Of a stretch of 12,164 nt of DNA, positions 1-12,164 are shown in pieces. Source of the stretch: Pleurocapsa sp. MO_226.B13 (lineage in GTDB: Bacteria > Cyanobacteriota > Cyanobacteriia > Cyanobacteriales > Xenococcaceae); assembly GCA_030064795.1 (NCBI GenBank), contig JASJEI010000122.1, positions 1 to 12,164 on the forward strand. Direction: 5' to 3'. The notes under the pieces were generated by a model, which saw nothing but the letters and a program-made list of their open reading frames with translations, had not been told where the DNA came from and searched no databases. The number at the start of each line of letters is the position of its first letter. Position 1 is the stretch's first letter. The position numbers and the translations under genes were made by a program.

Positions 1-130
1 CCAAAACTATTAAGAAATCCTTAAATTACATGGCTACGCTTTTCAATAATCAATCCTTCAATCTACTTTTATATATAGCTTTGAGTGTGTTTTAGTTCAT
101 TTGTATGCTGAAAGTTCCGTTTCAAGACGA

Positions 131-205
131 TGATCCCCTGCTTGCTCCGTCCTTACGCGCTCGGAGACCTCAGCCCTAAAGGATTAGCTTCGCGTCACGC
201 GGGCG
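131..205. repeat. GC-rich block with small inverted repeats at the truncated end of the IS remnant
   Basis: A GC-rich stretch stands out from AT-rich DNA on its left. It contains CTCCG (145-149) facing CGGAG (162-166) and CGCG (191-194) facing CGCG (198-201) across TCA, so it could form small hairpins. It begins where homology to the transposase remnant (read from the right, minus strand) stops. It stays open in one plus frame but has no start or ribosome site, so I do not call it a gene. I infer a dispersed intergenic repeat that ended up next to or inside the insertion sequence. No second copy lies in this window, so its repetitive nature is unproven. Confidence 0.3.
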
Positions 206-979
206 GTGCGCTTTTTCGAGGCACTGGTTATAACTGACTTGAATGCCTTCAAAGTGGTTGTTTTGAGCCATTTCAAACCAGTTCTTGACTTGAGCATAAA
301 GGGTAGGATGATTTCCTTTGAGCGCCAGCACGATCGGCAGCTTGTTTGTGACGAATCTGCTCTACAGTATCAGTCTGAGTTCCCATCGCGTCAATGGTAA
401 TGATTGCTCCCGAAATGTCTAGTAATTCCAGAAGTGCTGGAATAGCAGTAATTTCATGTTTTATGGTCTTCAACTTTTACCTGTCCTAGGACCAAGCGTT
501 GTTCACTCGCCCAAGCTGTAACTAGATGTAAGGCGAAGAATTCCTTGATTACGGTCGTAAGAACCTCTGAGGCTTTTGCCATCTATTGGTATGATTTCTG
601 ATTCCGTTGAACCGAGCAGTTGTTGAAACCATTTGACGACACTTTGCTCGCTTCGCTTCAGGATTAATACGCTCAAATACAAGGGCGTAACGTATCGTCA
701 CTGGGAATCCCATTGGGTAACTCTAAAAATTCTTCGCGCCCATTGCTGCTTACTGATGCCATAATTTTCGATGTCCTCCCAACCTCGTGCGCCCGCGATC
801 GCAGCTAAGACCGCTATGACTAAAATGTCTTTGAGGAGGTGTTTTTGGGTTCTTGAAACTCTAGGGTCAGGAAGATCGGCAAAGTAACCTGATAACTTGG
901 CTTGTACTTCATTGATTGTGGGGAGTTGTGCCTTGGTTGCTGCCAATCGCCTTCTTTTCTGCTTGAGATGAAGTTCCAA
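205..979 (-). pseudogene. ISAs1-family transposase, multiply frameshifted and 3'-truncated
   Basis: Read on the minus strand across frames, this is an ISAs1-type DDE transposase. The N-terminal domain includes LPDPRVSRTQKHLLKDILVI and AAIAGARGWEDIENYGISKQQW. Then come [103 protein letters not shown] and [20 protein letters not shown]. The frame must change near 744, 688, 650, 537, 470 and 337, giving at least six lesions. At about 337 the coding sequence reads GATCGTG where GATTACGTG (D-Y-V) would restore the frame. The C-terminal part of the DDE domain is absent: similarity ends near residue run CLEKAH at about 205. No ATG precedes the N-terminus; the first usable codon is TTG after an in-frame stop. 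The transposase cannot be functional as it stands. Confidence 0.85.
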
Positions 980-1100
980 ATCCTTTTGCCATAAACCTTT
1001 CCTTTACAAGTAAGCATTAGTTTTTGGGACATTATAGATTTCACAAGAGACTTCAGGGGTTGATTAGATTTTGCCACTTTTGTCAAGTACAATTTATACC
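205..1100 (-). mobile_element. Remnant of an ISAs1-family insertion sequence
   Basis: The element comprises the transposase remnant plus about 120 bp of 5' flank up to the broken end of the EACC1 gene at 1104. One end is truncated at about 205, where the GC-rich block begins. I could not pair terminal inverted repeats or find a target duplication, so both boundaries are approximate. It may be what removed the C-terminus and downstream partner of the EACC1 gene, but that order of events is inferred. Confidence 0.5.
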
Positions 1101-1103
1101 AAA

Positions 1104-1403
1104 TTAGATGAGCTTACCCTGCAATTTTAGAGTTTTGCCATTAAAACGTTCGCCCAAAGTATTCAACAATGCTTTGCTATTCTCTACACGAAAAACCGCC
1201 GATAACATTCCAGGGATCAAGTTAGCTAGTCCTGGTTTACCTCCTGCGGGAATCTTGGACTCTCTCACCAGGTCAACATCCTCTACCAATTCTGCTATTT
1301 CCTGTTTCAGATTGCGAGTCAACTCTTCCAGGGCTTCTGCTTCTAGATCGGGGTCAGCATCGCTAAGATCGATCTTGACTTGAACATTAGCTAAATCTGT
1401 CAT
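1104..1403 (-). CDS. Truncated effector-associated EACC1-like protein (99 aa remain)
   Basis: The protein begins MTDLANVQVKIDLSDADPD and continues with a conserved acidic helix, LEAEALEELTRNLKQEIAEL. A VRESKIPAGGKPG turn follows, then a hydrophobic stretch LANLIPGMLSAVF and a strand NGKTLKLQGK. This order (strand, DADP, L-DELTR-L-EL, V--V---IPAG-KG, hydrophobic region, G-T--L) is that of the effector-associated constant component EACC1. Such proteins usually neighbour CHAT, caspase or trypsin-like effectors in bacterial conflict and signalling loci. The start is good: AGAGGAAA lies about 7 nt before the ATG. The usual last strand and helix after GKTLKLQG are missing; the frame ends LI-stop where the IS remnant begins. 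No effector gene is nearby. It is divergent from the ATPase gene. Probably a non-functional remnant; the family call is from pattern memory. Confidence 0.6.
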   Translation of the reverse strand: MTDLANVQVKIDLSDADPDLEAEALEELTRNLKQEIAELVEDVDLVRESKIPAGGKPGLANLIPGMLSAVFRVENSKALLNTLGERFNGKTLKLQGKLI

Positions 1404-1512
1404 GCTGTTATTTCCTCTGGAGCTTTTTCGGAAATTTTAGGCTAAATGAAGCTGAGTAATAAATTTGTCCCAAAATTTTTAAACTTGTTAATTCTGGATA
1501 TCTGGATATTAT

Positions 1513-4407
1513 ATGCATCATGGGGAGCAATTCGCAGGAGCTATTTTGGAGCATCAATGGCATTCACTTTCAATACAGGAAGTAACTCAAATCCTAGCCA
1601 GTGATTTAGAGAACGGACTGACCACCGATGAAGCAGCTAGACGACGGGAGAAGTTTGGAGTCAATCAACTAACCCCACAAAAAAGTAAAAGTCCCTACCA
1701 GCTTTTTTTACAGCAATTTAATCAACCATTACTGTATATTTTGTTGTTGGCAGGAGTCATCACCCTATTTCTCCAAGATTGGATCGATGCGATCGTAATT
1801 TTTGCAGTAGTTTTAATTAATGCAATTGTGGGCTATATTCAAGAATTTAAGGCAGAAAATGCCCTCGCTGCTTTGGCGGCATCAATTACGACGGAAGTAA
1901 CTGTCATTCGCCAAGGAACAGAGCAAACCTTACCCTCAGAAGAATTAGTTCCTGGCGATTTGGTGGAATTGAATACAGGAGATAAGGTTGGGGCTGACCT
2001 ACGACTAATTTTAGTTAATAATCTGCAAACTGATGAATCTTCTCTTACAGGAGAGTCTGTCCCTGTTGATAAAGTAACCGAAGCAATAGATGAAGCAACT
2101 ACCCTTGCCGAGCGCCATAATATGGCATACGCAGGCACAGTCGTCATATCGGGACAGGGAATCGGTCTAGTGGTAGCGATCGCTGAAGCAACGGAGACTG
2201 GTCGAATTTCTCAATTGGTCGAACAGGGTAGTAGTCTGAAAACTCCTCTGACTCGCAAACTAGAGAAATTTAGTTGGAGACTGCTTTATATTATTCTCGG
2301 ACTAGCTGCTTGTACCTTTGCCGTTGGTTTGGGACAGGGACGATCTTGGCTACCCATGTTTCAGGCGGCTGTTGCCTTGGCAGTTAGCGGCATTCCCGAA
2401 GAATTACCGTCTTTGGTAACGATTACTCTGGCGATCGGTGTTTCTCGTATGGCAGCCCGTCATGCCATTATTCGTAATTTGCCCACCGTCGAAACACTTG
2501 GTAGTGCCACAGTTATTTGTGCCGATAAAACTGGCACTCTTACTGAAAATCAAATGACGGTTAAAGAAATTTATGCGGTCGACCAACTTTATCACGTTGA
2601 GGGAACGGGCTATGAATCCATAGGTAGGATTCTCGATCAAAATCAGCCGATTAATTTAGGAGCAGAACCGATCCTAGATGCCTGTTTGCGTAATGGACTG
2701 TTATGTAATGATTCTTATCTAGAAGAAGAAGCTGGACAGTATACGGTTGCTGGCGATCCAACTGAAGGTGCATTAATTGTTGCCGCTAGTAAAGCTGGAT
2801 TACAGCAACAAACTCTGACTGAAGCAATGCCGAGACTGGATGCTATTCCTTTTGACTCCCAATTTCAATACATGGCAACGCTACACCAAGCTAGAACCCA
2901 GAAGAATAGTACTAACCCTCGGAACATAATCTACATTAAAGGTGCGGTAGAAACCATTGTGGCTCGTTGCGATCGCGCTCTGCGCGGTGGCAGAGCCAAT
3001 CGCGAAGTGTCGGCGGAGTCCAATCAGCAACTGACTAACGCCGAAATAGAAGTCTCCCTCGACCAAGATCTAATTCATCAGATTGCTGAAAATATGGGCA
3101 AGAGAGGATTGCGGGTCATTGCCTTTGCACAGAAGTACGTTGCAGCAGAAAAAAAGACAATCGAGCGGGAAGATCTCGAAGAGGGATTAGTTTTTGTTGG
3201 CTTACAAGGAATGATTGACCCCCCACGCTCGGAAGCAGTTGAGGCAGTAGCAAACTGTTTGGCAGCAGGAATTCAGGTCAAAATGATTACGGGAGATCAT
3301 GCTACTACAGCCTGTGCGATCGCCAGGATGATGAAGTTAGACCCCAGCGGTACAATCAAAGCCTTTACAGGTAAAGAACTGGAACTAATGAGCGATTGCG
3401 CTCCGCGACGGGGCTTACAAGCACCTGAAGTAAATTCAGGTGACAGCCCCTCCACTGGCAAAGCCAATCGCGACCTGGCTCAAGCAGTCAAAGATGGGGT
3501 AGTTTTTGCTCGCGTTGCTCCCGAACAGAAATTACGCCTAGTAGATGCCTTACAGTCTCAAGGAGAAATTGTTGCCATGACTGGGGATGGTGTTAATGAT
3601 GCCCCTGCCCTCAAGCAAGCGGATATTGGGATTGCTATGGGTAAAGCAGGTACGGAAGTAGCCAAAGAATCTGCCGATCTGATTTTGACCGACGATAACT
3701 TTGCTTCCATTGAAGCAGCCGTAGAGGAAGGTCGCACCGTTTATCACAATTTACAGAAAGCGATCGCCTTTGTGTTGCCCGTCAATGGCGGGGAAGCATT
3801 GACCATCTTGGCAAGTGTTTTGTTAGGGACTTCTCTGCCGATCTTACCCCTACAAATTCTCTGGCTCAATATGGTCAGTTCCTCTGCGCTCTCAATTCCT
3901 CTGGCATTTGACCACCAGACTACCGATGTCATGCAGCAATCTCCGCGAAATCCCCAACACCCATTACTATCAGGCAGTATTTTGAGACGGATTCTGCTCA
4001 TTTCCCTATTTAATTGGGCGATTACCTTCGGCATCTTTGAATGGATTGTGAACTCTACAGCTAATGAAGTATTGGCGCGAACTATGGCAGTTCAGGCCTT
4101 AGTTGCGGCGGAGATTTTTTATCTCTTAAGTATTAGCCAGTTTTTCCCCTCTATCTGGAGCGGGCTGCGTCAACGAAAACAATCTGGACAGCAGGCGATT
4201 GCGTCGCTAGCCGCAGGCATCGCTTATCCCACTGCAATAGGGATTGTTTGTGTTGTGATTCTCCAATTTCTTTTCAGTCAGTGGTCAATCTTAAATTCTC
4301 TACTCAACACTACGCCTTTGAATTTTACTCAAAGTTTAATTTGCATCATTGTCGGACTACCAGCCGTAGTTTTAGGCAGCTTGTTCGGACGCTTCGATCC
4401 CCTATGA
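1513..4407 (+). CDS. P2-type cation-transporting ATPase (PacL/Ca-ATPase-like)
   Basis: An inner-membrane ATP-driven cation pump, 964 aa. Visible in order are the N-terminal cation-ATPase domain (about 15-75), a first pair of membrane helices (about 70-110), the actuator loop TGES (179-182), the M4 motif PEEL (295-298), the phosphorylation site DKTGTLT (Asp338), the nucleotide-binding KGA (476-478), the hinge TGDGVNDAP (690-698), and C-terminal helices M5-M10. M5 keeps N758 and E761, matching SERCA Asn768 and Glu771. M6 reads NMVSSS (786-791), where SERCA has N-L-V-T-D-G, so the key Asp800 equivalent is Ser. Calcium specificity is therefore doubtful. Two extra peptides, at about 488-497 and 628-653, are encoded by HIP1-linked repeats in the N and P domains. 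The ATG at 1513 has no Shine-Dalgarno; TTG at 1546, five bases after AGGAG, would give a 953-aa protein starting at EHQWHSL and may be the true start. A tandem TCTGGATA (1493-1508) lies just upstream. Confidence 0.92.
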   Translation: MHHGEQFAGAILEHQWHSLSIQEVTQILASDLENGLTTDEAARRREKFGVNQLTPQKSKSPYQLFLQQFNQPLLYILLLAGVITLFLQDWIDAIVIFAVVLINAIVGYIQEFKAENALAALAASITTEVTVIRQGTEQTLPSEELVPGDLVELNTGDKVGADLRLILVNNLQTDESSLTGESVPVDKVTEAIDEATTLAERHNMAYAGTVVISGQGIGLVVAIAEATETGRISQLVEQGSSLKTPLTRKLEKFSWRLLYIILGLAACTFAVGLGQGRSWLPMFQAAVALAVSGIPEELPSLVTITLAIGVSRMAARHAIIRNLPTVETLGSATVICADKTGTLTENQMTVKEIYAVDQLYHVEGTGYESIGRILDQNQPINLGAEPILDACLRNGLLCNDSYLEEEAGQYTVAGDPTEGALIVAASKAGLQQQTLTEAMPRLDAIPFDSQFQYMATLHQARTQKNSTNPRNIIYIKGAVETIVARCDRALRGGRANREVSAESNQQLTNAEIEVSLDQDLIHQIAENMGKRGLRVIAFAQKYVAAEKKTIEREDLEEGLVFVGLQGMIDPPRSEAVEAVANCLAAGIQVKMITGDHATTACAIARMMKLDPSGTIKAFTGKELELMSDCAPRRGLQAPEVNSGDSPSTGKANRDLAQAVKDGVVFARVAPEQKLRLVDALQSQGEIVAMTGDGVNDAPALKQADIGIAMGKAGTEVAKESADLILTDDNFASIEAAVEEGRTVYHNLQKAIAFVLPVNGGEALTILASVLLGTSLPILPLQILWLNMVSSSALSIPLAFDHQTTDVMQQSPRNPQHPLLSGSILRRILLISLFNWAITFGIFEWIVNSTANEVLARTMAVQALVAAEIFYLLSISQFFPSIWSGLRQRKQSGQQAIASLAAGIAYPTAIGIVCVVILQFLFSQWSILNSLLNTTPLNFTQSLICIIVGLPAVVLGSLFGRFDPL
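2969..3003 (+). repeat. HIP1-associated palindromic element, copy A (in-frame in ATPase)
   Basis: Left arm GCGATCGCGCTCTGC, loop GCGGTG, right arm GCAGAGCCAATCGC: the arms pair almost perfectly. Removing 27 bp leaves GCGATCGC. The copy translates as D-R-A-L-R-G-G-R-A-N-R, right after the conserved KGA...RCD region of the nucleotide-binding domain, where related pumps go straight into a short linker. It nearly matches the copy at 9078-9112 and both ends of the copy at 3392-3471. Confidence 0.8.
3392..3471 (+). repeat. HIP1-associated palindromic element, copy B, with nested 45-bp hairpin insert
   Basis: The ends match copy A: GCGATTGCGCTCCGCG on the left and GGCAAAGCCAATCGC on the right. Between them lie about 45 extra bases forming a two-part hairpin: GGGGCT (3410-3415) pairs with AGCCCC (3445-3450), and CACCTGAA (3422-3429) pairs with TTCAGGTG (3435-3442) around loop GTAAA. 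Total insertion relative to an intact GCGATNGC is 72 bp, or 24 codons, so the ATPase frame survives. The peptide begins D-C-A-P-R and ends G-K-A-N-R. It interrupts the P domain between FTGKELELMSD and DLAQAVKDGVVFARV. Confidence 0.75.
4195..4223 (+). repeat. Possible shorter HIP1-bounded repeat in ATPase C-terminal region
   Basis: The stretch has the same outer form as the other copies, GCGAT...ATCGC, with 21 bp (7 codons) between the two halves of a would-be GCGATCGC. The inner sequence (TGCGTCGCTAGCCGCAGGC) differs from the other elements. It encodes ASLAAGI at the edge of a C-terminal helix. It may be a different repeat type or ordinary coding sequence. Confidence 0.25.
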
Positions 4408-4709
4408 TCCTAAATCCTGTTGGTGTAGGTTACTTAAATCAACGAAAAACGAAGTAATAAGTATTGATTACTCCCCCAGTCTCCCAGTCTCCCTACATAA
4501 ATAACCTCTGTCAATCAGATTTAGTATGATAGGCGCTCTCCAGAGAATTATTTTCATTTTAACTCTTCAATGTTGCCGTTTTTGAGAGAAAATAGAGATA
4601 GATCGAGTACAGTAGTATTTATTTTGAGGTTGCCTCACTAGCCAAAAAAAGTTTTTGGCTAATAGCTAATAGCTGAGAACGGAGAACTACTAGCGTAGCG
4701 AGTTAAATT
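4408..4709. other. Intergenic region with tandem repeat and hairpin
   Basis: No convincing gene. It holds a tandem CCCAGTCT (4475-4482 and 4483-4490, then CCC), a strong AT-rich hairpin at 4639-4661, and a tandem TAATAGC around 4660-4673. The promoter of the downstream cluster presumably lies here, but I cannot pick clear -35/-10 boxes. Confidence 0.5.
4639..4661 (+). terminator. Terminator-like hairpin without a following T-run
   Basis: TAGCCAAAAA (4639-4648) pairs exactly with TTTTTGGCTA (4652-4661) across a 3-nt loop. There is no T-tract after the stem other than the one in its right arm, and it lies about 230 bp after the ATPase stop. It could be a bidirectional terminator or an intergenic repeat. 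Confidence 0.3.
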
Positions 4710-4724
4710 GGGGAGGTGACAATC

Positions 4725-5123
4725 GTGATAGATTCCAAATTTTTGACTAGTACACTTAAAACTACCGTCAGTTTATTACTGATGGCGGGAATTTGGCTCT
4801 TGCCTTTGAATATGGTAGCCAAGACAGCTCCCACTCCCAAAGATACAGCTCAGCAGCTAGAAGGAATTGTAGCTAGAAATTGGTCTCAATGGTCGTGGGG
4901 CGTTGGCGGAGCGGTAGCTTACTTAGGCTCAGATTCGGCAATTAGCCAACCGTCAGCACGGGCTACAGAAACAAGTTCCGCGATTTACTCTGACTCGGTT
5001 TATGAACTAACAAATCATTCCAGCTCAGACTGGGAGGTTCAAGCTGCAAGCCAAGACTGGCTTAATCTTAATCGAGGGGATGGTTCTCAAGATTTAGTCC
5101 GAATTGTTATCTTTCGATTTTGA
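4725..5123 (+). CDS. Small exported protein of unknown function
   Basis: About 132 aa. The N-terminus has a lysine, then a hydrophobic helix (TTVSLLLMAGIWLLPLNMVA) ending near a plausible signal-peptidase site before KTAPTPKD, so export to the periplasm or retention in the membrane is likely. The rest is hydrophilic and rich in Ser, Gln and Trp (RNWSQWSWGVGG, NHSSSDWEVQAASQDWLNLN), ending RIVIFRF. I recognise no domain. GTG 4725 is preferred because the near-consensus ribosome site GGAGGTGA (4712-4719) lies at proper spacing before it; the GTG at 4716 overlaps that site. The gene sits 24 bp before pcm, which has an equally strong site, suggesting one transcription unit. A link to pcm is inferred from position only. 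Confidence 0.6.
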   Translation: MIDSKFLTSTLKTTVSLLLMAGIWLLPLNMVAKTAPTPKDTAQQLEGIVARNWSQWSWGVGGAVAYLGSDSAISQPSARATETSSAIYSDSVYELTNHSSSDWEVQAASQDWLNLNRGDGSQDLVRIVIFRF

Positions 5124-5147
5124 AACATGGTCAGGAGGTGAAGTGTT

Positions 5148-5910
5148 ATGAATTTTGGCTTGGCATCGCTCGCTTTACTATTGTGCTGCGTGTTACTAAT
5201 GAGCGTACCTAATAATGCAGCAGAACTAACCCCTAATTCCTCTGGACTTCAGAGACCAAATTCTAATCCGACGATGGAGCAATTTGAGTTGCAGCGGAAG
5301 CAAATGGTGAAATACCAGCTTCACGATCGCGGTATACAAGATGAACGAGTCTTAACTGCGATGTCCAAAGTGCCTCGCCATCAATTTGTTGACTTATCTT
5401 TGAGGGATTTAGCTAAGGCGCGATCGCGCCTTAGCTATCGGTTATCAACAGACCATCTCTCAACCTTATATCGTGGCTTACATGACTGAATCGGCTGAGA
5501 TTTCGACCGATACCAAAGTGTTAGAAATCGTCACTGGTTGTGGGGATCAAGCAGCGGTACTCGGGGAGATAGCCCAAAAGGTCTATTCCATCGAGATTAT
5601 TCCCCAACTGGCGGCTAGAGCTCGTCGAACTCTCAGTCAACTGGGCTACGAGAATATCGAAGTAAAAACTGGTGATGGATACCAAGGCTGGGCAGAACAT
5701 ACTCCCTACGATGCAATTATAGTTACTGCCGCTCCCAAGCGTATACCTCAAGCCTTAATCGACCAACTAGCAATTAACGGTAAGATGGTGATTCCTGTAG
5801 GTACGTGGTATCAGGACATAATTGTGCTGACGAAAACCGAGAATGGTATGGTTGAGGAGAGAACCATTCCCGTTCGTTTTGTACCGATGATCGGAAAACC
5901 CCGACCATGA
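5148..5910 (+). pseudogene. pcm: Protein-L-isoaspartate O-methyltransferase with signal peptide, frameshifted
   Basis: This enzyme class uses SAM to methylate isoaspartyl residues in damaged proteins. The first part (5148 to about 5420) has a signal peptide-like start, MNFGLASLALLLCCVLLMSV, then the PCMT N-terminus MVKYQLHDRGIQDERVLTAM and KVPRHQFVDLS. The frame is then lost; the following frame continues ALAIGYQQTISQPYIVAYMT, motif I VLEIVTGCGDQAAVLGEIA, VYSIEIIPQLAARAR, PYDAIIVTAAPKRIPQALI and MVIPVG...VRFVPMIGKPRP. The break coincides with a perfect 28-bp palindrome at 5410-5437, consistent with a net +1 base. Motif I is also eroded: the usual E-I-G-T-G-S-G-Y-Q is E-I-V-T-G-C-G-D-Q. The first frame ends at 5489 and the second could restart only at GTG 5473, without the N-terminal domain. 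AGGAGGTGAA (5133-5142) precedes ATG 5148. A periplasmic enzyme is implied. A sequencing error could mimic the frameshift. Confidence 0.85.
5410..5437. repeat. Perfect 28-bp palindrome centred on HIP1 at the pcm frameshift
   Basis: The left half-site TAGCTAAGGCGCGA is followed by its exact reverse complement, with the centre between 5423 and 5424 and GCGATCGC in the middle. No loop base is unpaired. The palindrome spans the codons where pcm changes frame. Confidence 0.9.
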
Positions 5911-5955
5911 TGAACTAACAAAAGACTCAGCAGTCAAGCAGAGAGAACAGTTCTG

Positions 5956-7371
5956 ATGAGAGAGAAGATTTTGCATGGCCGCTACGACATTCAGCGACAA
6001 CTGAGAAAATATGCTGGACGACAAACACTACTGGCACTAGATTTACCAACTCAAGAACTAGTAATTATCAAACTGCTGACTTTTGGTAGTGACTTTGAAT
6101 GGCAGGATTTGAAACTGTTTGCTAGGGAGGCTGAAATTCTTCAAGAACTCTCTCATCCAGCAATCCCTCGCTATCTAGACTACTTTGAACTCAACTTGCC
6201 AGAGTTAAAAGGTTTTGCTCTAGTACAAACCTATATCCCCGCTCGGTCTTTATCAGAACACCTGCAAGCAGGACGTACCTTTAGCGAAGTAGAGGTTCAG
6301 CAAATCGCTAAAGCTCTCTTAGAGGTACTGATTTACCTGCACGAAAGGCTTCCTCCCGTGATTCACCGCGATCTCAAAGCCAGTAATGTTTTGCTGGGCG
6401 ATCGCTCTGGCGAACATGTGGGTCAAGTCTATCTCGTGGATTTTGGCTCAGTCAAAACTCCTGTGGTGCAACAAGACGGAAGTATAACAATAGTTGGAAC
6501 TTATGGTTATATGCCACCAGAGCAATTTGGCGGGCGAGCCGTTCCTGCTTCAGACCTTTATGGACTGGGTGCAACCTTAATTCACCTGGTAACAGGGAGT
6601 CATCCTGCGGATTTACTTCAGGATGACCTGAAAATTCAGTTTGAACAGTTGGTAAATCTTAGTCCTGCTTTCCTTGACTGGTTAAAATGGCTGACAGAAC
6701 CCACCTTAGAGCGTCGTCCGACTTCAGCGCGAGAAGCACTAGAGGCTTTAGATATTTTGTCCCAGCGTCACTTTCCCTTAGTTGTTTTCCAGCCAGACGA
6801 CAGCAAAATTCAGTACATCAAACAACAAGAGCGGTTAGAAATTACGATTCCTCCTGCTGGCTTTAGTCTTCGGGTTGGGTTTCTCTGCGTGTTCGATCTG
6901 ATTTGGCTTTCTTTGTTAACTCATTGGACTATTGTTGCTTGGGGAGAACCTTGGTTAATCTTGCTGCCGCTTTTTCACTGGGCGTTTGGCATCTGGATTT
7001 TCTTAGCAATTCTCTTTACTTTGTTCGGTAAGATTCATTTTAGCCTCACTCCAGCCAAGATTTCTCTAATCTACGAGATGTTGGGGTTGAAGTTTACTTA
7101 CCCTCGTCCAGAAGCAAGACAGGATATATGCAAACTGGAGATTATCGAGCAACAAACTGTTAGACCTGGTGGCTCTAAAAGGGAAAGAATTCAAGTTAAT
7201 ATCCCTTCTCAGTTGGTCATTTGGGCAGACAAACGCAAGTATGTACTAGGGCAAAATGCTTTGACTCGATGGTTACGAATCAGCCGAAGAAGAGTTCTTC
7301 ATGCATCGGAGTTGGATTGGCTAGCTCAAGAAATAAGCGACTGGTTGGAGTTACCAATTTCTCGGTCATAG
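5956..7371 (+). CDS. Serine/threonine protein kinase with C-terminal membrane and PH-like region
   Basis: A 471-aa Hanks-type kinase. The kinase domain spans about 8-270: catalytic Lys39 in VIIKL, probable helix-C Glu58/60 (REAEIL), catalytic loop HRDLKASN (137-144), DFG (162-164), activation segment GTYGYMPPEQ (181-190), SDLYGLG (199-205), and ERRPTSA near the end. The glycine-rich loop is not canonical: the position normally occupied by G-x-G-x-x-G reads RKYAGRQT. Downstream are two hydrophobic segments (about 303-323 and 330-357), then a strand-rich tail (about 360-465) that looks like a PH-like domain and may sense or anchor. This implies a membrane-anchored kinase with both ends in the cytoplasm. 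The start ATG has only a weak ribosome site (GAGAGA). It lies 45 bp after pcm and may be cotranscribed with it. It ends 49 bp before the convergent slipin gene. Confidence 0.88.
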   Translation: MREKILHGRYDIQRQLRKYAGRQTLLALDLPTQELVIIKLLTFGSDFEWQDLKLFAREAEILQELSHPAIPRYLDYFELNLPELKGFALVQTYIPARSLSEHLQAGRTFSEVEVQQIAKALLEVLIYLHERLPPVIHRDLKASNVLLGDRSGEHVGQVYLVDFGSVKTPVVQQDGSITIVGTYGYMPPEQFGGRAVPASDLYGLGATLIHLVTGSHPADLLQDDLKIQFEQLVNLSPAFLDWLKWLTEPTLERRPTSAREALEALDILSQRHFPLVVFQPDDSKIQYIKQQERLEITIPPAGFSLRVGFLCVFDLIWLSLLTHWTIVAWGEPWLILLPLFHWAFGIWIFLAILFTLFGKIHFSLTPAKISLIYEMLGLKFTYPRPEARQDICKLEIIEQQTVRPGGSKRERIQVNIPSQLVIWADKRKYVLGQNALTRWLRISRRRVLHASELDWLAQEISDWLELPISRS

Positions 7372-7420
7372 CACTAACAGATTTAATCAGAAGCTAAAGC
7401 CAATTAATTTTAGGTTACGC

Positions 7421-8254
7421 TCAGGAAGATGATTTATCTACTCTGTCATTTTTCTGTAGAGCATCAGTCCATTGCTTGGCTAAGGTAATTAAATCTGATG
7501 GCATCATCACCAAAGTCGTAGTATTGTTCTCCGCACCAATTTCAGTTAACATTTGTAACCGTCTCAATTCTAAAGCAGCTGGATTTTCCATAATTCTTTG
7601 GGAGGCTTCAGCCAACTTAATGGAGGCTTCCTGTTCCGCAGCGGCTTTGATTAACCGAGCGCGTTTTTCCCTGACAGCTTCTGCTTCTTTGGCCATGGCC
7701 CTTTGCATAGCTAGGGGAATTTCGACATCTTTAATTTCCACCCTTTCAATTTCAACTCCCCAAGGCTCCGTCATTTCATCGACAATTTCTTGGACTTTAA
7801 AGTTAATCTTGTCCCTTTTTTGCAAAATATCATCGAGGATGTTTTGACCGACCACATTACGTAGAGTGGTCATAGCAGCTTGATAGACCGCCATCTGATA
7901 ATTCTCAACCCTGTTAATTGCCTTGTTGGGGTTGAGGATGCGATAAAATAAAACAGCATTCACTCTAATTGTTACGCTGTCAGCAGTAACTGCTTCTTGA
8001 GGAGCGATGTCAACGGTTTTGGTGCGGATATCAACTTGGGCTTTGCGCTCGGCGAAAGGAATAATCCAGTAAATTCCTGGTCCCTTGATTCCTTTGAAGC
8101 GACCTAGTCGAAAGATTACGCCTCGTTGGTATTCTCGATCGATCTTTATTCCTGCTATGCCAGACAGAATAACTAGAGAGGCAAAGGTTCCTAGTACAAT
8201 TTCCATAATTTGCTCTTGAAGAATCTCGGATAACTCTATTGTAGAAGGATTCAT
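7421..8254 (-). CDS. Slipin/stomatin-family SPFH (band 7) membrane protein
   Basis: An N-terminal membrane helix (MEIVLGTFASLVILSGIAG) is followed by the slipin signature IKIDREYQRGVIFRLGRFKG and PGIYWIIPF. Then comes the SPFH core (VDIRTKTVDIAPQEAVTADS, VTIRVNAVLFYRI, MTTLRNVVGQNILDDIL, WGVEIERVEIKDVEIP). A charged helix with probable coiled-coil character (MAKEAEAVREKRARLIKAAA, EQEASIKLAEASQ) is next, with the usual short hydrophobic tail region TTLVMMPSDLI. The family forms oligomeric scaffolds in membrane microdomains; its clients here are unknown. Often an NfeD-type gene is adjacent, but none is here. The start is uncertain: TTG 8272 (283 aa), ATG 8254 (277 aa) and ATG 8206 (261 aa) are in frame. 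None has a strong ribosome site; 8206 best fits the usual family length. It is divergent from the DUF29 gene. Confidence 0.9.
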   Translation of the reverse strand: MNPSTIELSEILQEQIMEIVLGTFASLVILSGIAGIKIDREYQRGVIFRLGRFKGIKGPGIYWIIPFAERKAQVDIRTKTVDIAPQEAVTADSVTIRVNAVLFYRILNPNKAINRVENYQMAVYQAAMTTLRNVVGQNILDDILQKRDKINFKVQEIVDEMTEPWGVEIERVEIKDVEIPLAMQRAMAKEAEAVREKRARLIKAAAEQEASIKLAEASQRIMENPAALELRRLQMLTEIGAENNTTTLVMMPSDLITLAKQWTDALQKNDRVDKSSS

Positions 8255-8372
8255 AGAGGAGGCTTCTGGCAATTTTCTAGAACTTTAGGTCAGGGCGATC
8301 GCCAAACTTCTTAACCTTTTTAAATTAAAATAATAGTCTGATATTCCTGAGGGAGAAGAGGGAAGGTAACTC

Positions 8373-8813
8373 GTGAGTACAACCTACACAACAGACTTCA
8401 ACTTGTGGGCTCAACAGACAGCCCAACTCTTGCGAGAACGCCGTTGGCAGGAGATTGACTTAGAGTATTTGATTGAGGAGGTTGAAGACTTGGGCAAGAG
8501 TGAACGGCGGGGTATTTCTAGCCAACTGACTCGCCTTCTGCTGCATCTGCTCAAATGGCAGTATCAACCCCAGCGTCGCTCGGATAGCTGGTTGGACTCT
8601 ATTACCGACGCTCGGACGCAGATTGAGCTAGCTATCCAAGATAGTCCTAGTCTCAAAAGCTACCCTGAAAAGCAACTCGAACCAAGTTATCAGAAGGCTA
8701 GTCGCAAGGCAAGCAAGCAGACAAGAATGCCACTTTCAGTCTTTCCAACAAAGTGCCCATATTCCCTAGAACTGATATTAGACGAGGATTGGTTGCCCGA
8801 AAAAGACGATTGA
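8373..8813 (+). CDS. DUF29 domain-containing protein
   Basis: 146 aa spanning the whole DUF29 family pattern. It opens with YTTDFNLWAQQTAQLLRERR, W-QEIDLEYLIEEVEDLGKS, and then RLLLHLLKWQYQPQRRSDSW. Later come SYPEKQLEPSYQKASRKASK, LPLSVFP-like MPLSVFPTKCPYSLELIL, and a C-terminal DEDWLPE. DUF29 proteins are common in cyanobacteria, soluble, mostly helical, and without an assigned function. The start GTG at 8373 is preceded by AGGGAAGG. The gene has no obvious operon partner; higB follows after 89 bp with its own promoter-like sequence. The length matches the family, so it appears intact. Confidence 0.9.
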   Translation: MSTTYTTDFNLWAQQTAQLLRERRWQEIDLEYLIEEVEDLGKSERRGISSQLTRLLLHLLKWQYQPQRRSDSWLDSITDARTQIELAIQDSPSLKSYPEKQLEPSYQKASRKASKQTRMPLSVFPTKCPYSLELILDEDWLPEKDD

Positions 8814-8867
8814 GATTCTGAAGTTGTTGATGAATTTAGATGAGAGCCTATATTGAAATAAGTCCAC

Positions 8868-8896
8868 TTTACGTTTAACGTTTATCGTTATACAAT
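8868..8896 (+). promoter_or_regulatory. higBA promoter with probable HigA operator
   Basis: TTTACG (8868-8873) and TACAAT (8891-8896) are spaced by 17 bp as -35 and -10 boxes. Between them sits the inverted repeat TAACG (8876-8880), TTTAT, CGTTA (8886-8890), within a run of three similar 7-mers (ACGTTTA, ACGTTTA, TCGTTAT). HigA antitoxins normally repress their own operon by binding such a site; binding here is inferred. Transcription would begin at about 8903, at the higB start codon, implying a leaderless or nearly leaderless message. Confidence 0.5.
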
Positions 8897-8902
8897 GAGC
8901 TG

Positions 8903-9211
8903 GTGATTAAAAGCTTTCGAGATAAAGAAACTGAAAAAATCTTCAATCGCCAACGCTCGCGCAAACTACCGTCCGATATTCAGCAAATTGCGTTGCGTAA
9001 ACTACGTATGCTCAACCGCTCGCAATCTCTACAAGATTTGCGCGTGCCTCCGTCTAATCGTCTCGAAAAACTATTGGGCGATCTCGCTCCGCGAGGTGGC
9101 AGAGCCAATCGCCAAAATCAATACAGTATCCGTATTAACAACCAGTGGCGTATTTGCTTTATTTGGCAAGATAACGATGCCTACAATGTTGAGATTGTCG
9201 ATTATCACTGA
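8903..9211 (+). CDS. higB: HigB-type toxin (RelE/ParE fold) with an extra loop peptide
   Basis: 102 aa. It begins MIKSFRDKETEKIFNRQRSR and has LRKLRMLNRSQSLQDLRVPP, then SNRLEKL, and the conserved C-terminal half QYSIRINNQWRICFIWQDND, AYNVEIVDYH. This is the HigB subfamily of ribosome-associated mRNA-cutting toxins. Relatives read about L-x-G-D-R-x-x-Q-Y-S-I-R; here nine residues (LAPRGGRAN, 61-69) are added between D60 and R70 by a HIP1-linked repeat. The added loop precedes the central strands; whether the toxin stays active is unknown. The start is GTG with no upstream ribosome site and a -10 box only 6 bases away. higA follows after 12 bp, so the two are cotranscribed. Confidence 0.88.
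   Translation: MIKSFRDKETEKIFNRQRSRKLPSDIQQIALRKLRMLNRSQSLQDLRVPPSNRLEKLLGDLAPRGGRANRQNQYSIRINNQWRICFIWQDNDAYNVEIVDYH
9078..9112 (+). repeat. HIP1-associated palindromic element, copy C (in-frame in higB)
   Basis: It starts GCGATCTCGCTCCGCGAGG and ends GGCAGAGCCAATCGC, the same 35-bp length as copy A and differing at a few positions. Collapsing 27 bp restores GGCGATCGC followed by CAAAATCAATAC, which would encode the family-like G-D-R-Q-N-Q-Y. The reading phase is identical to copies A and B. Confidence 0.85.
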
Positions 9212-9223
9212 GAATAGATAAAC

Positions 9224-9526
9224 ATGATAAAGGATAAACTTGCACCAATTCACCCAGGAGAAGTTCTGCTAGAAGAATTTCTCAAGCCAATGGGACTCAG
9301 CCAGAATCGGCTAGCCCTCGATATTCGCGTACCAGCAAGACGTATTAATGAAATTGTCCTCGGCAAGCGTCGCATTACAGTTGATACAGCCTTGAGACTG
9401 GCACGATTTTTCAATATGTCACCAAAGTTCTGGCTTGGAATCCAGATGGATTATGACTTAGATCTTGCTGAGAATGAACTAGCAGAAAAAATTGCCAGAG
9501 AAGTGAAAATATTCACCCCAAGTTAA
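9224..9526 (+). CDS. higA: HigA-type antitoxin, XRE-family HTH protein
   Basis: 100 aa. The start reads PIHPGEVLLEEFLKPMGLSQ, then the helix-turn-helix NRLALDIRVPARRINEIVLG, KRRITVDTALRLARFFNMSP and KFWLGIQMDYDLDLAENEL. These are the standard marks of the HigA family (VapI/XRE HTH). It neutralises HigB and should repress the shared promoter, where TAACG-N5-CGTTA is the candidate site. The gene is downstream of the toxin, the order usual for hig modules. The length is normal and there is no repeat insertion, unlike the toxin. Confidence 0.93.
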   Translation: MIKDKLAPIHPGEVLLEEFLKPMGLSQNRLALDIRVPARRINEIVLGKRRITVDTALRLARFFNMSPKFWLGIQMDYDLDLAENELAEKIAREVKIFTPS

Positions 9527-9890
9527 GAGATCAAGTTACCAGAAAAAGTAGATTGGGACTTTGAGATTGTTGATAAGCCGATCGCAACTTTCTAGAAACC
9601 TATATCAACGCGATCGCTCCTGAGAGAAATAGGCTAAAAGTCTCTGTCTAAGAGAGCATTTTGCCCAAGATAAACTTGTGTAACATTTAAGTCCGCACAC
9701 AAATTTCTCATAATCTTTTTTTAGCCTAGAAGAAGCAGTTAAATCGGGATAAAAAACCCAAATCGTGTCGTGATTCTAGATGTCCTTGTGCAGAACGCGA
9801 CACTTGGAAAACATTCCTGGATGTCTTTGCCCTAAATTATTTAAATTTAGTATCTCTTAATATGTATGGTGCTTCAATGGTGAGGGGCTA
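9527..9890. other. Intergenic region upstream of the LuxR-type regulator
   Basis: No supported gene. It carries a HIP1 site near 9611, an inverted pair TTGTGT (9676-9681)/ACACAA (9697-9702), an inverted pair GTGTCG (9765-9770)/CGACAC (9798-9803), and a direct pair GATGTCCTTG/GATGTCTTTG around 9779 and 9819. CATAAT (9709-9714) is a possible -10 box without a good -35. An open run just after higA (LPEKVDWDFEIVDKPIATF) may be a protein fragment; I cannot place it. Confidence 0.4.
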
Positions 9891-10004
9891 ATGAATGCTT
9901 CATCTAGCGAGAAAAGCTATGGTATTAAAACAAAGGATGTTGTTGAGTTGCGATCGCCATTTTGGCGCAAAGTGCGATCGCTGTATTTTAAATCTAGTAC
10001 GTAA
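9891..10004 (+). CDS. Possible 37-aa leader ORF before the LuxR-type gene
   Basis: ATG 9891 follows GAGGGG by a few bases, a better ribosome site than any near the regulator's own start. The 37-aa product begins MNASSSEKSYGIKTKDVVEL and is basic. Two HIP1 sites (GCGATCGC near 9950 and 9976) fall within it. Its stop is 7 bp before ATG 10012, which would allow translational coupling. No homologue is recognised; it may be chance. Confidence 0.3.
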   Translation: MNASSSEKSYGIKTKDVVELRSPFWRKVRSLYFKSST

Positions 10005-10011
10005 GTATTTA

Positions 10012-10623
10012 ATGCAAACAGAAGAAAACACTTCTTCCTTAGATAAAGAGCAACAAATATTGACACGACTCAAGCAAGTATTCGATCGTCTCGGTGCAAT
10101 AATCGTAACACCCGAGGGAGAAGTTCAGTTTATGACCCAAAGAGGAGAGCAACTATTAAGTCAGTATTTTTCCTCCTACTCCACACACTCGTTGCCAGAA
10201 CCATTACAACATTGGTTTAAGCATCAGATTTCGCGATTCATTCCCAAGGACAATGTTCAATGCTCCTGTTTTCCCTTGCACATGGAGCAAGCAGGAAAGC
10301 GGTTAAGCATTTACTTTATTTGCGATTTAATCGGAGACCAATATCTCATTTTGTTGGAAGAACGAGAACTAGAATCCTTCTCAATTTCATCTTTGGAATT
10401 ATTAGGACTCACCAAACGCGAGGCGGAGGTACTCTTCTGGGTTGCTAAAGATAAAAACAATGCCGCGATCGCAAAAGTACTTGGTTGCTGTAAAGGAACG
10501 GTGCGGAAACATCTAGAACATATTTACGAAAAACTGGGTGTACAAACCCGAACCGCTGCTGTGATTGTTGCCCTGGAAAGGTTGGGGCTACTCAATAGGC
10601 AGTTTGTTGCAATATCTTCATAA
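10012..10623 (+). CDS. LuxR-family (GerE-type HTH) transcriptional regulator
   Basis: 203 aa from ATG 10012. The N-terminal part (about 15-115) looks PAS-like, with LKQVFDRLGAIIVTPEGEVQ and a later strand pair YFICDLIGDQYLILLEERE. The C-terminal HTH (about 130-190) is typical of LuxR/GerE: LGLTKREAEVLFWVAKDKNN, AAIAKVLGCCKGTVRKHLEH, IYEKLGVQTRTAA. No phosphoacceptor receiver domain is present, so an input by ligand or partner binding is more likely. The frame is open back to ATG 9895, but the extra 39 residues are Cys/Arg/Lys-rich, run through two HIP1 sites and look non-coding, so I prefer 10012 despite its weak ribosome site. Its target is not evident; the M4 gene 470 bp downstream is only a neighbour. 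Confidence 0.82.
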   Translation: MQTEENTSSLDKEQQILTRLKQVFDRLGAIIVTPEGEVQFMTQRGEQLLSQYFSSYSTHSLPEPLQHWFKHQISRFIPKDNVQCSCFPLHMEQAGKRLSIYFICDLIGDQYLILLEERELESFSISSLELLGLTKREAEVLFWVAKDKNNAAIAKVLGCCKGTVRKHLEHIYEKLGVQTRTAAVIVALERLGLLNRQFVAISS

Positions 10624-10737
10624 TCCTATACGCGGATCTTCGTATTGTTCGCAAAGTTTATTTTGAGGAGAATTAGATAAAGAGGGAATCATAGGAAAAA
10701 CGTTTACTAATAACAATCCAATGCCTACTATTACCAA
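10618..10737 (-). CDS. Possible small membrane protein or gene fragment (39 aa)
   Basis: A minus-strand frame, convergent with the LuxR gene and overlapping its end. It reads (TTG start) VIVGIGLLLVNVFPMIPSL, then SNSPQNKLCEQYEDPRIGL. A single hydrophobic helix plus a polar tail looks protein-like, more so than random AT-rich DNA. An in-frame stop lies four codons upstream, there is no ATG before residue 16, and I see no ribosome site. It could be a tiny membrane protein or the end of a lost gene. Confidence 0.25.
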   Translation of the reverse strand: MVIVGIGLLLVNVFPMIPSLSNSPQNKLCEQYEDPRIGL

Positions 10738-11093
10738 ATCTGCTTGTCAAAACCCCTTTATAAAAGTTGTGACTTTGTTGGCAAAAGTAATTTTTACGAA
10801 ACTAATTATACTACAGAAACGAGAAATCTTTACTCTGGTAATTAAAAATGAGAATTAAATAAAATGCAGAACTTTTTTAAATAACTCGCATGATAGCGAG
10901 ATTAGGCAATTTAAGTTTTGTAGATAATAAAATCCTCATTCCTTAGCAATACTCTATGTAAGATTACTTGTAGCACATTCGCCAACAAAGTCATGTTGTT
11001 TAAAAAATCAAATTTTTGCTTTCTGACAAACTCATTCATTCTCATTCATGCAATTTCACTTTAATAAACTTAATTTTCAAGGAGGATTTAGTA
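10738..11093. other. AT-rich intergenic region upstream of the M4 gene
   Basis: No supported gene. One short hairpin, CTCGC (10885-10889) with GCGAG (10896-10900), is visible. The end carries a strong ribosome site (AAGGAGGA, about 11081-11088) for the downstream ATG. The long untranslated stretch may hold the promoter and leader, but I cannot assign boxes. Confidence 0.4.
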
Positions 11094-12122
11094 ATGGATA
11101 ATGGATTACGCACATTTGTCTTTCAAAGTTCACTTGAGCCGACACCTATGTGGCTGAGTTCAGAAGTCTCTGCCGCTGCTGCAAGGTATGGAGAACGGCG
11201 GGGTTCGGATTTATCTTCATTGGATGCCGAAAAAATTGCTCGACGATATCTTCAGGGTGCATTGGCAAGTTCGGAACTCCCAAGCTTTACCGTTGCTGAA
11301 GTTAGTGGACAGGCGAGTGAGTTTAAGTGTTTAGGTGTTGAAAACATTCCCTTAACCAATACAAAGACTGTAAAATTCCGTCAATACTACTCTAAAATCC
11401 CTGTATATGGATCGCTGATCACAGTAGAATTAGAACAAGGTAACGAACTAATCTCAATCAACTCGGCATTGGGTGACCCTGTTAATGTCGATCCGATCGC
11501 TTCTATTTCTCCCGCGCAAGCTCTCCAGACAGCACGTGCAGAAGCAGGTTATGGCAACAAACATTTGAATGCCATTCCACGTCTTAACTATTACTACGAT
11601 CAAGATACACGTCGCTGGAGATTAGTATACATCATTGAAGATGTACTCAAGCAAGATACTGAAGATGTAGAAAAAGCCCATCCATTACCTGAAGTCATGG
11701 ACTATGTCATTGATGCCCATTCAGGTGAATTGGTTTGTGAGTTGCCACGAACCCAAACTATTGGGGAAGTACCGTTTACGGAAACTGCAAATGATGGTCT
11801 GGGAGAACAGCGCCAGATTTCCGGTATGCAACGAAACAGTACGAAATTCTTACTTAATCGGGCTAATAACGTACACACTCATGACTTTGAATTCCGCGAT
11901 GTCCGTCGGCAATGGTTCCTATTACCAGGGAAATATGTAGAAAATCCCCCAACACCTTGGAATCCAGGTGGAGTCAGTGCTCATGCCAACGCTGAACAAG
12001 TTGTACAGTTTCTTAGGAACGTACTAATGCGCGATGGCTTGGATAATCGGGGTGGAAAAATTGTGTCCTCAATTAATTGTCTGTATTCTGGTCAGTTGGA
12101 CTTTGGACAAACAGCAAAATGA
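11094..12122 (+). CDS. M4 (thermolysin-like) metallopeptidase, propeptide plus partial catalytic domain
   Basis: 342 aa. The start at 11094 is chosen because AAGGAGGA precedes ATG at good spacing; the frame is open farther back but without that site. There is no signal peptide. Residues about 85-135 form an FTP propeptide domain (VKFRQYYSKIPVYGSLITVE), and about 137-215 form a PepSY-like part (WRLVYIIEDV, VMDYVIDAHSGELVCELPR). From about 240 comes the N-lobe of the mature M4 domain (FEFRDVRRQWFLLPGKYVEN, SAHANAEQVVQFLRNVLMRD, GLDNRGGKIVSSINCLYSG). In the family this continues to HExxH and a distal Glu, the zinc ligands; here the frame stops at SGQLDFGQTAK, so none of them is present and it cannot be a peptidase. 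After SGQ the reading no longer resembles M4, and all three frames meet stops before the window ends. Probably a truncated gene; a retained stand-alone propeptide is the alternative. Confidence 0.75.
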   Translation: MDNGLRTFVFQSSLEPTPMWLSSEVSAAAARYGERRGSDLSSLDAEKIARRYLQGALASSELPSFTVAEVSGQASEFKCLGVENIPLTNTKTVKFRQYYSKIPVYGSLITVELEQGNELISINSALGDPVNVDPIASISPAQALQTARAEAGYGNKHLNAIPRLNYYYDQDTRRWRLVYIIEDVLKQDTEDVEKAHPLPEVMDYVIDAHSGELVCELPRTQTIGEVPFTETANDGLGEQRQISGMQRNSTKFLLNRANNVHTHDFEFRDVRRQWFLLPGKYVENPPTPWNPGGVSAHANAEQVVQFLRNVLMRDGLDNRGGKIVSSINCLYSGQLDFGQTAK

Positions 12123-12147
12123 TTCGCGAATACTAATCGCGAATTTT
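12122..12147 (+). terminator. Terminator-like hairpin at the stop of the truncated M4 gene
   Basis: ATTCGCGA (12122-12129) pairs with TCGCGAAT (12137-12144) across a 7-nt loop, followed by TTT. AAAAT lies just before and ATTTT just after, the symmetry seen at bidirectional terminators. The stem begins on the last base of the stop codon. It could also be a repeat at the truncation point. Confidence 0.45.
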
Positions 12148-12164
12148 GACTCAAGAATCAGCTG

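Follow-up and report, generated by a model that had tools for sequence, protein, structure and literature searches.

A 27-bp two-hairpin repeat inserted in HIP1 sites of Pleurocapsa and its relatives, probably a mobile element of SDR5 type

How does one short palindromic sequence come to lie, in frame, inside two unrelated proteins? The question is raised by a 12,164-nucleotide stretch of Pleurocapsa sp. MO_226.B13 (contig JASJEI010000122.1, positions 1 to 12,164 of the forward strand), which in its full length is referred to here as the window. In it, a repeat of 35 bp occurs both in a cation P-type ATPase gene and in a higB-like toxin gene, each time with the two halves of the HIP1 octamer, GCGATCGC, at its ends. 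How the smallest cyanobacterial repeats move is, to our knowledge, an open matter. For HIP1 itself, described in 1995, little is known so far about its significance, according to the HIP1 passages of PMC4390886. The analysis reported here indicates that the repeat is very probably a mobile element that targets HIP1. Taken as a whole, the evidence makes it probable that this element is a non-autonomous 27-bp repeat of SDR5 type, which inserts precisely into HIP1 and may be copied by template switching.

Copies in the window and the family to which they belong

The original prediction, made from the letters of the window, had placed repeats at three loci, and all three were confirmed, two in the P-type ATPase and one in the HigB-like toxin. 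The copy at 2969–3003 (plus strand) consists of GCG (2969–2971), an insert of 27 bp (2972–2998) and ATCGC (2999–3003), with stems CGCGC/GCGCG and TGGC/GCCA and loops TCT and AGA. Its host is the ATPase gene at 1513–4407 (plus strand; PF00122, PF13246, PF00702), which houses further inserts at 3392 and 4195. At 9078–9112 (plus strand), a 27-bp insert (9081–9107) in HIP1 adds nine codons to higB (8903–9211, plus strand; PF05015), with stems CTCGC/GCGAG and TGGC/GCCA and loops TCC and AGA. The third copy, at 3392–3471 (plus strand, 80 bp), is a composite in the ATPase P domain, in which the 27-bp element and a nested 45-bp palindrome together add 72 bp to HIP1. As had been claimed, HIP1 is restored when 27 bp, or 72 bp from the composite copy, are removed. 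A left end of GCGAT-y-GCGC, proposed for all three copies, does not hold, since the higB copy reads GCGAT-CTCGC, a change that is compensated in the stem partner. The prediction had correctly seen an enlarged element at 3392–3471 but overlooked that the extra 45 bp are a separate palindromic repeat, and it had missed that the ATPase gene carries a fourth insert, at 4195–4223 (plus strand; GCG 4195–4197, insert of 21 bp 4198–4218, ATCGC 4219–4223).

The general unit of 35 bp is GCGAT-[5-bp stem, 3-nt loop]-N-[4-bp stem, 3-nt loop]-ATCGC, of which 27 bp are the insert in HIP1. A search for the 35-bp sequence elsewhere had been proposed, and when it was run in relatives of the window's organism the sequence proved abundant. 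A pattern scan of the genome collection, in which gaps of 0–30 between the halves were allowed, returned 29 matches in 28 stretches, all of them 35 bp, which is well outside what coincidence would give. Seventeen of these stretches belong to the metagenome-assembled genome (MAG) Pleurocapsa sp. MO_192.B19, nine to a MAG labelled Chloroflexaceae SM1_2_4, and one each to Pleurocapsa sp. CCALA 161 and an uncultured Coleofasciculus. The label of SM1_2_4 (G002; G and L numbers denote genomes and loci of our set) is doubtful, because the collection draws this genome from the order of MO_192.B19. At up to three mismatches, the four genomes hold 114 (the Pleurocapsa MAG, G001), 25, 7 and 1 copies, and the reversed (backward-read) control gave 0 in all four.

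A covariance model, built from rows that include both 35-bp window copies, scored these copies at 57.0 bits (2969–3003) and 56.7 bits (9078–9112), with E about 1e-11. Model hits occur in 17 of 27 genomes of the host family: at least 149 in G001, where 150 candidates were scored, 122 in G019, in which a 6.39-Mb contig carries most among the matches listed, and 52 in G014. G029, the closest relative by ATPase, has 0 model hits. In a class-wide search, which was filtered more strictly and scored 23 candidates in each genome, hits were obtained in 17 of 291 genomes, and these matches keep the plan while their stem and loop letters vary. The 5/4-stem class, the plan that the model favours, occupies 130 places in the examined DNA (reversed control 0). 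Counts of the exact spacing GCGAT-N25-ATCGC, compared with N28, were 171 versus 39 in G001 and 142 versus 70 in G171, with smaller excesses in G045 (75 versus 42) and G118 (46 versus 23); G171 gave no model hit in the class-wide search despite its excess. Across 145 genomes the two counts are mostly similar and differ both ways (122 versus 161 in G294). The N25 counts are thus mostly a background of HIP1-rich DNA, and we therefore do not claim a wide spread from them. No match was found in plasmid records (megablast only, window 1500–9550) or in viral contigs (exact patterns). The variants include 17 mixed hairpin combinations, and 27-bp units stand head to tail at three loci; the pair at L153 is flanked by intact GCG and ATCGC, and those at L158 and L214 have one outer arm altered. 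As a separate observation, positions 9950–9981 of the window, which run from a HIP1 to its neighbour within the upstream portion of a LuxR-type open reading frame (ORF), give a weak match to the family model (16 bits) and are possibly a decayed copy or chance.

The nested palindrome (3408–3452, plus strand, borders uncertain by a base or two) reads GGGGCT...CACCTGAA...TTCAGGTG...AGCCCC and sits between the two hairpins of the composite copy. It belongs to a separate, REP-like family. A query of 62 bases, 17 of them from the two-hairpin element, detected relatives in 22 of the 27 host-family genomes at an E of 1 or less, and in 18 of the 27 the best E was below 0.001. The nesting recurs, at the matching point, at a second locus (L292, G014:C28), which may be a compound element or a preferred nesting site. 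The 21-bp insert at 4195–4223 scored 17.1 bits with the family model. Its short-stem class has four members in 1.14 Mb of examined DNA, the others being at L003:7560, L120:5686 and L174:840, and 0 in the reversed control; one broken stem pair counts against the assignment of the window insert. The common plan of the 21-bp and 27-bp elements suggests a wider superfamily, and Nostoc repeats presumably share that plan.

HIP1 as the insertion target

The original prediction had expected HIP1 at the corresponding empty sites of orthologues. This is often the case at the exact point, although not at 2969 nor at four of the 13 testable bulk sites; overall, an intact HIP1 stands at the exact point in at least one orthologue at 12 of 17 testable sites. 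For the 9078 site, GCGATCGC was found there in 4 of 29 aligned HigB orthologues (L093, L098, L110, L112), 30 having been fetched, of which L102 did not align. The ATPase sites were compared in 19 of 30 ATPase loci. An empty GCGATCGC occupies the 3392 site in 4 of these 19 relatives (L059, L062, L063, L075), and the 4195 site is an intact GCGATCGC in L059, one of eight aligned relatives. At 2969, HIP1 lies at the exact point in 0 of 19 aligned relatives; the region varies in length among them, with at most GCGAT retained, and in L063 the gap is followed, a few bases downstream, by a HIP1. L063, the ATPase of G019, also holds an apparent independent 27-bp two-hairpin unit in its C-terminal part, near the match of window position 4195.

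For a bulk comparison, 16 further insertion sites were queried in ORFs of G001, G003 and G019, and 14 were followed; L001, with no orthologue among the matches listed, and L218, with weak ones alone that were not fetched, were dropped. From the match tables 73 orthologous stretches, a selection of the matches, were chosen, and 72 of them aligned, four carrying an insert and 68 being empty. GCGATCGC lies exactly at the point in 37 of the 68 empty orthologues (L002 4/7, L049 6/8, L043 2/5, L132 6/6, L019 7/7, L150 4/6, L156 4/5, L054 1/1, L208 3/8). This agreement is far above chance, because all 73 stretches together, 33,093 bases with the insertion sites included, contain just 67 HIP1. The bulk sites at which HIP1 is absent from the point are L046 (0/1), L126 (0/5), L134 (0/7) and L203 (0/2); three of the five empty L126 orthologues read ACGATCGC, and in the L046 orthologue HIP1 lies further upstream. 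L016 has no empty orthologue in this set. The aligned gap is 27 bp, or nine codons, with one further adjoining codon of difference in L312. Among others, the sites fall in PolA-, GlpD-, ParA-, RecD- and P-type-ATPase-like genes (names judged from protein letters).

Occupied and empty paralogues coexist within one genome (L150 versus L311 and L312; L132 versus L277). Furthermore, the orthologue of the L208 gene in G011 (L327) carries a different 27-bp two-hairpin unit at the same HIP1, and a RecD-like gene in G010 (L274) carries a 24-bp unit at the same HIP1; these two HIP1 sites were each used twice, by independent insertion. The same insert at the same gene site in two genomes was observed for L150 (G001) and L314 (G019:C2, on a 103-kb contig), and for L016 (G001) and L318 (G022); these shared inserts may reflect common descent or transfer. 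The alignments fit an insertion point between GCG and ATCGC. Since AT is repeated in both halves, the border is ambiguous by two bases, and an equivalent reading of the same sequence is a 25-bp element that is inserted after GCGAT and duplicates the 2 bp AT.

Fold of the element and its possible route of movement

Pairing was assessed in loci of G001 picked by a pattern that leaves three of the nine stem pairs free. At least eight of the nine pairs form in 62 of 66 exact GCGAT-N25-ATCGC copies, and the 49 distinct sequences among these unfiltered loci contain 53 double-changed stem cells, 7 G-T cells and 28 other unpaired cells. Copies with the stem TGCGC (n = 92) carry the loop TCC in 57 cases and its reverse complement GGA in 17, so both loop orientations occur. 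The minimum-energy DNA fold is the covarying three-way junction in 6 of 6 single-copy strands (both strands of the two 35-bp window copies and of one G001 copy; z −2.1 to −2.6; the centroid differs on one strand), and the RNA fold is this junction in 0 of 3 single-copy folds (one strand each). In these predictions, the covarying structure is the fold of single-stranded DNA and not that of RNA. A structure at the RNA level was considered and set back: none of the three RNA folds shows the covarying junction, and few G-T cells occur. Comparison of the copies with one another and with empty sites establishes, at the level of sequence, HIP1 as the target, the exact 27-bp insertion, its recurrence as independent events, the covarying stems and the two loop orientations.

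As the route of copying, we tentatively propose template switching during replication, which is narrowly preferred to a transposase. The HIP1 half-sites GCGAT and ATCGC would clamp two triloop mini-hairpins, and one DNA strand would then fold as the three-way junction; in replication the same halves would provide the microhomology for switching onto and off a donor copy. Hairpin arms would be equalised, and loops flipped, by the same process. Template switching between inverted repeats is reported to yield arm homogenisation and spacer inversion (PMC8604942, PMC8794818). Such switching would explain the target, the absence of a clear duplication, the behaviour of arms and loops, and the mixed hairpin combinations. 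Copies would persist in genes as near-neutral nine-residue loops, because their length is nine codons and most of their frames are open. A stronger version, which we regard as unlikely, is a transposase-free repeat for which HIP1 is a genome-wide docking site, where a stalled fork jumps to a two-hairpin donor and back and thereby copies nine codons. If true, HIP1, replication and a protein-loop generator would form one system, in which fork errors keep hairpins perfect and flip loops.

The best-surviving alternative is an element moved by an enzyme, either a single-strand (HUH/Y1-type) transposase or a HIP1-cutting endonuclease, which would recognise the hairpins as RAYTs do those of REPs. The exact choice of site and the single-strand hairpin anatomy fit such enzymes, and all six genomes searched contain Y1_Tnp genes; we rate this explanation slightly less likely than template switching. 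In G029, G015 and G016, each with at most one element hit, Y1 matches still number 15, 17 and 3, and no Y1 partner is indicated, because Y1 genes occur in element-rich and element-poor genomes alike. Thirty loci of about 3 kb were fetched from the Y1 matches, a sample in which distant RAYTs may be missed; L238 has an element-like hit at E 0.00044 and L235 one at E about 0.4. None of the element copies was found to carry a gene of its own, distant RAYTs not having been searched separately.

A further explanation, that inserts are kept for a benefit to the host as a protein loop or mRNA structure, is improbable. All six frames are open in 56 of 80 distinct variants, compared with 35% of random hairpins of equal composition, which is a hint only, the variants not being independent, and in two cases (L150/L314 and L016/L318) a same-site insert is common to two genomes, although this may be plain descent or transfer. 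Against a benefit at the mRNA level stand the scarcity of G-T cells and the three divergent RNA folds. The coding context was examined in 96 copies from four genomes and the window, each with at least eight of nine stem pairs. Forty-nine of these lie in ORFs of at least 150 aa (mechanical calls) and 47 outside; for the HIP1 sites of these loci, the share inside such ORFs is 286 of 401. The copies are therefore found in long ORFs less often than their target, and the suggestion in the original prediction that they are positively selected as coding inserts is not supported; its picture of a small, non-autonomous, HIP1-targeting element tolerated in coding sequence stands, on the empty sites and the family counts. 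Copy-bearing proteins include DNA polymerase I, RecN, GlpD, ParA, a RecD-like helicase, P-type ATPases and a nonribosomal peptide synthetase (NRPS), again judged from protein letters. A common reading phase, with GAT read as a codon, is real in the three copies first noted but not family-wide. A fixed phase was rejected, since genic copies use five of the six phase and orientation classes. Genic copies fall into the three phases as 23, 23 and 3, and genic HIP1 sites as 145, 111 and 30. Under the family's own distribution of phase and orientation, the three window copies would agree with a probability of about 7%, and their agreement is explained by HIP1 placement plus chance.

Scarcely credible, finally, is an origin without any mobile element, through in-place slippage or palindrome correction at HIP1, chance or assembly artefact: HIP1 is itself palindromic and a 28-bp perfect palindrome surrounds one HIP1 of the window (5410–5437), but identical 27-bp sequences at unrelated loci imply a donor, copies lie on the 6.39-Mb contig of G019 and in several assemblies with reversed controls of 0, and both the mismatch census and the empty-site comparisons already contradict it.

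Several points weigh against a mobile HIP1-targeting repeat copied by template switching. No movement was observed and no mobilising gene was identified, and template switching alone leaves the high copy number in only some genomes unexplained. At 5 of the 17 testable sites, 2969 included, no orthologue has an intact HIP1 at the point. The filtered alignment has 73 double-changed cells against 16.2 in shuffles, and its figure of 97.5% paired is inflated, because the model rows were selected partly for pairing (at least 8 of 9 stem pairs), the unfiltered set serving as the check; further pair types, one of five covariation measures, number 14 against 13.7 in shuffles (297 of 500 as high). Selection on DNA hairpin structure, instead of template switching, could also produce the stem covariation. 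The DNA fold of the 21-bp insert does not surpass that of its shuffled versions (z −0.54), 59 of 200 of which fold at least as well, and its hairpin plan is therefore drawn from comparison alone. Finally, the likeness to SDR5 is drawn from the described insertion mode, the shortness and the dispersal, and the genomes compared here are Pleurocapsa-like and relatives. The insertions with intact empty HIP1, the head-to-tail doubles, the reused HIP1 and the DNA covariation make the moving mechanism testable by sequencing and insertion assays, and the family supplies natural nine-residue insertions in conserved enzymes.

Elsewhere in the window, a helix-turn-helix antitoxin gene (higA-like; 9224–9526, plus strand; PF01381) is the partner of higB in a type II toxin-antitoxin pair. 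The window also contains a protein-L-isoaspartate methyltransferase gene (5148–5910; second half matching PF01135) that a frameshift has split at the palindrome at 5410–5437, which is perfect, 28 bp long and centred on HIP1. At this position the frame is uninterrupted in 12 of 12 relatives fetched and HIP1 is present in 9 of 12; the palindrome looks like a palindrome correction at HIP1. On the minus strand, positions 698–1092 hold a remnant resembling the N-terminus of an ISAs1-type transposase (judged from protein letters, no family search).

Comparison with known repeats

MITEs, of which Nezha is a cyanobacterial example, measure 70–300 bp with end repeats of 15–30 bp, according to the MITE passages of PMC3733652. 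The element described here is likewise non-autonomous with inverted end repeats. It differs in that the whole insert is 27 bp, well outside that size range, and its end repeats are the target's own halves, whereas those of MITEs resemble a parent insertion sequence; for the element here a parent was sought among Y1 genes only. REPs and REPINs have one end of the stem-loop marked by a tag, GTAG or CGTC, as described in the same source, and share with the 27-bp element the form of short stem-loop repeats in many dispersed copies. The 27-bp element lacks such a tag, its consensus ends being the paired GCGAT and ATCGC, and is commonly intragenic. Of the 30 Y1 loci fetched, a sample that may miss distant RAYTs, one shows an element-like hit below E 0.01. 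REPs are more closely resembled by the nested 45-bp palindrome than by the 27-bp element. The Rickettsia palindromic elements (RPEs), which the original prediction had named as a parallel, are repeats of 105–146 bp that lie in frame within protein-coding genes and are tolerated in conserved enzymes, as reported in the part of PMC2229807 that treats them. The parallel holds for in-frame insertion in conserved protein genes. It does not extend to size, and the element here has a fixed 8-bp target, two hairpins and an unrelated (cyanobacterial) host.

The closest comparison is with the small dispersed repeats (SDRs) of cyanobacteria (Elhai et al. 2008, as cited in passages of PMC4390886 and PMC3116915). 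The passages of PMC6513891, PMC3733652 and PMC2884548 that cite the same work give no SDR sequence detail, and the 27-bp family is unnamed in the titles and abstract openings of the literature searched, a set that does not cover Elhai et al. 2008. Whether the family is already catalogued, a question left with the original prediction, is answered in part: SDR5 is described in PMC4390886, citing that work, as a HIP1-targeting repeat inserted between nucleotides 3 and 4 of HIP1. The 27-bp element agrees in its precise insertion between these bases, with the AT ambiguity leaving the exact phosphate open, and in being very short, dispersed and multi-copy. On that description, the HIP1 insertion mode is already known from SDR5, and the 27-bp family is a variant set beside it.

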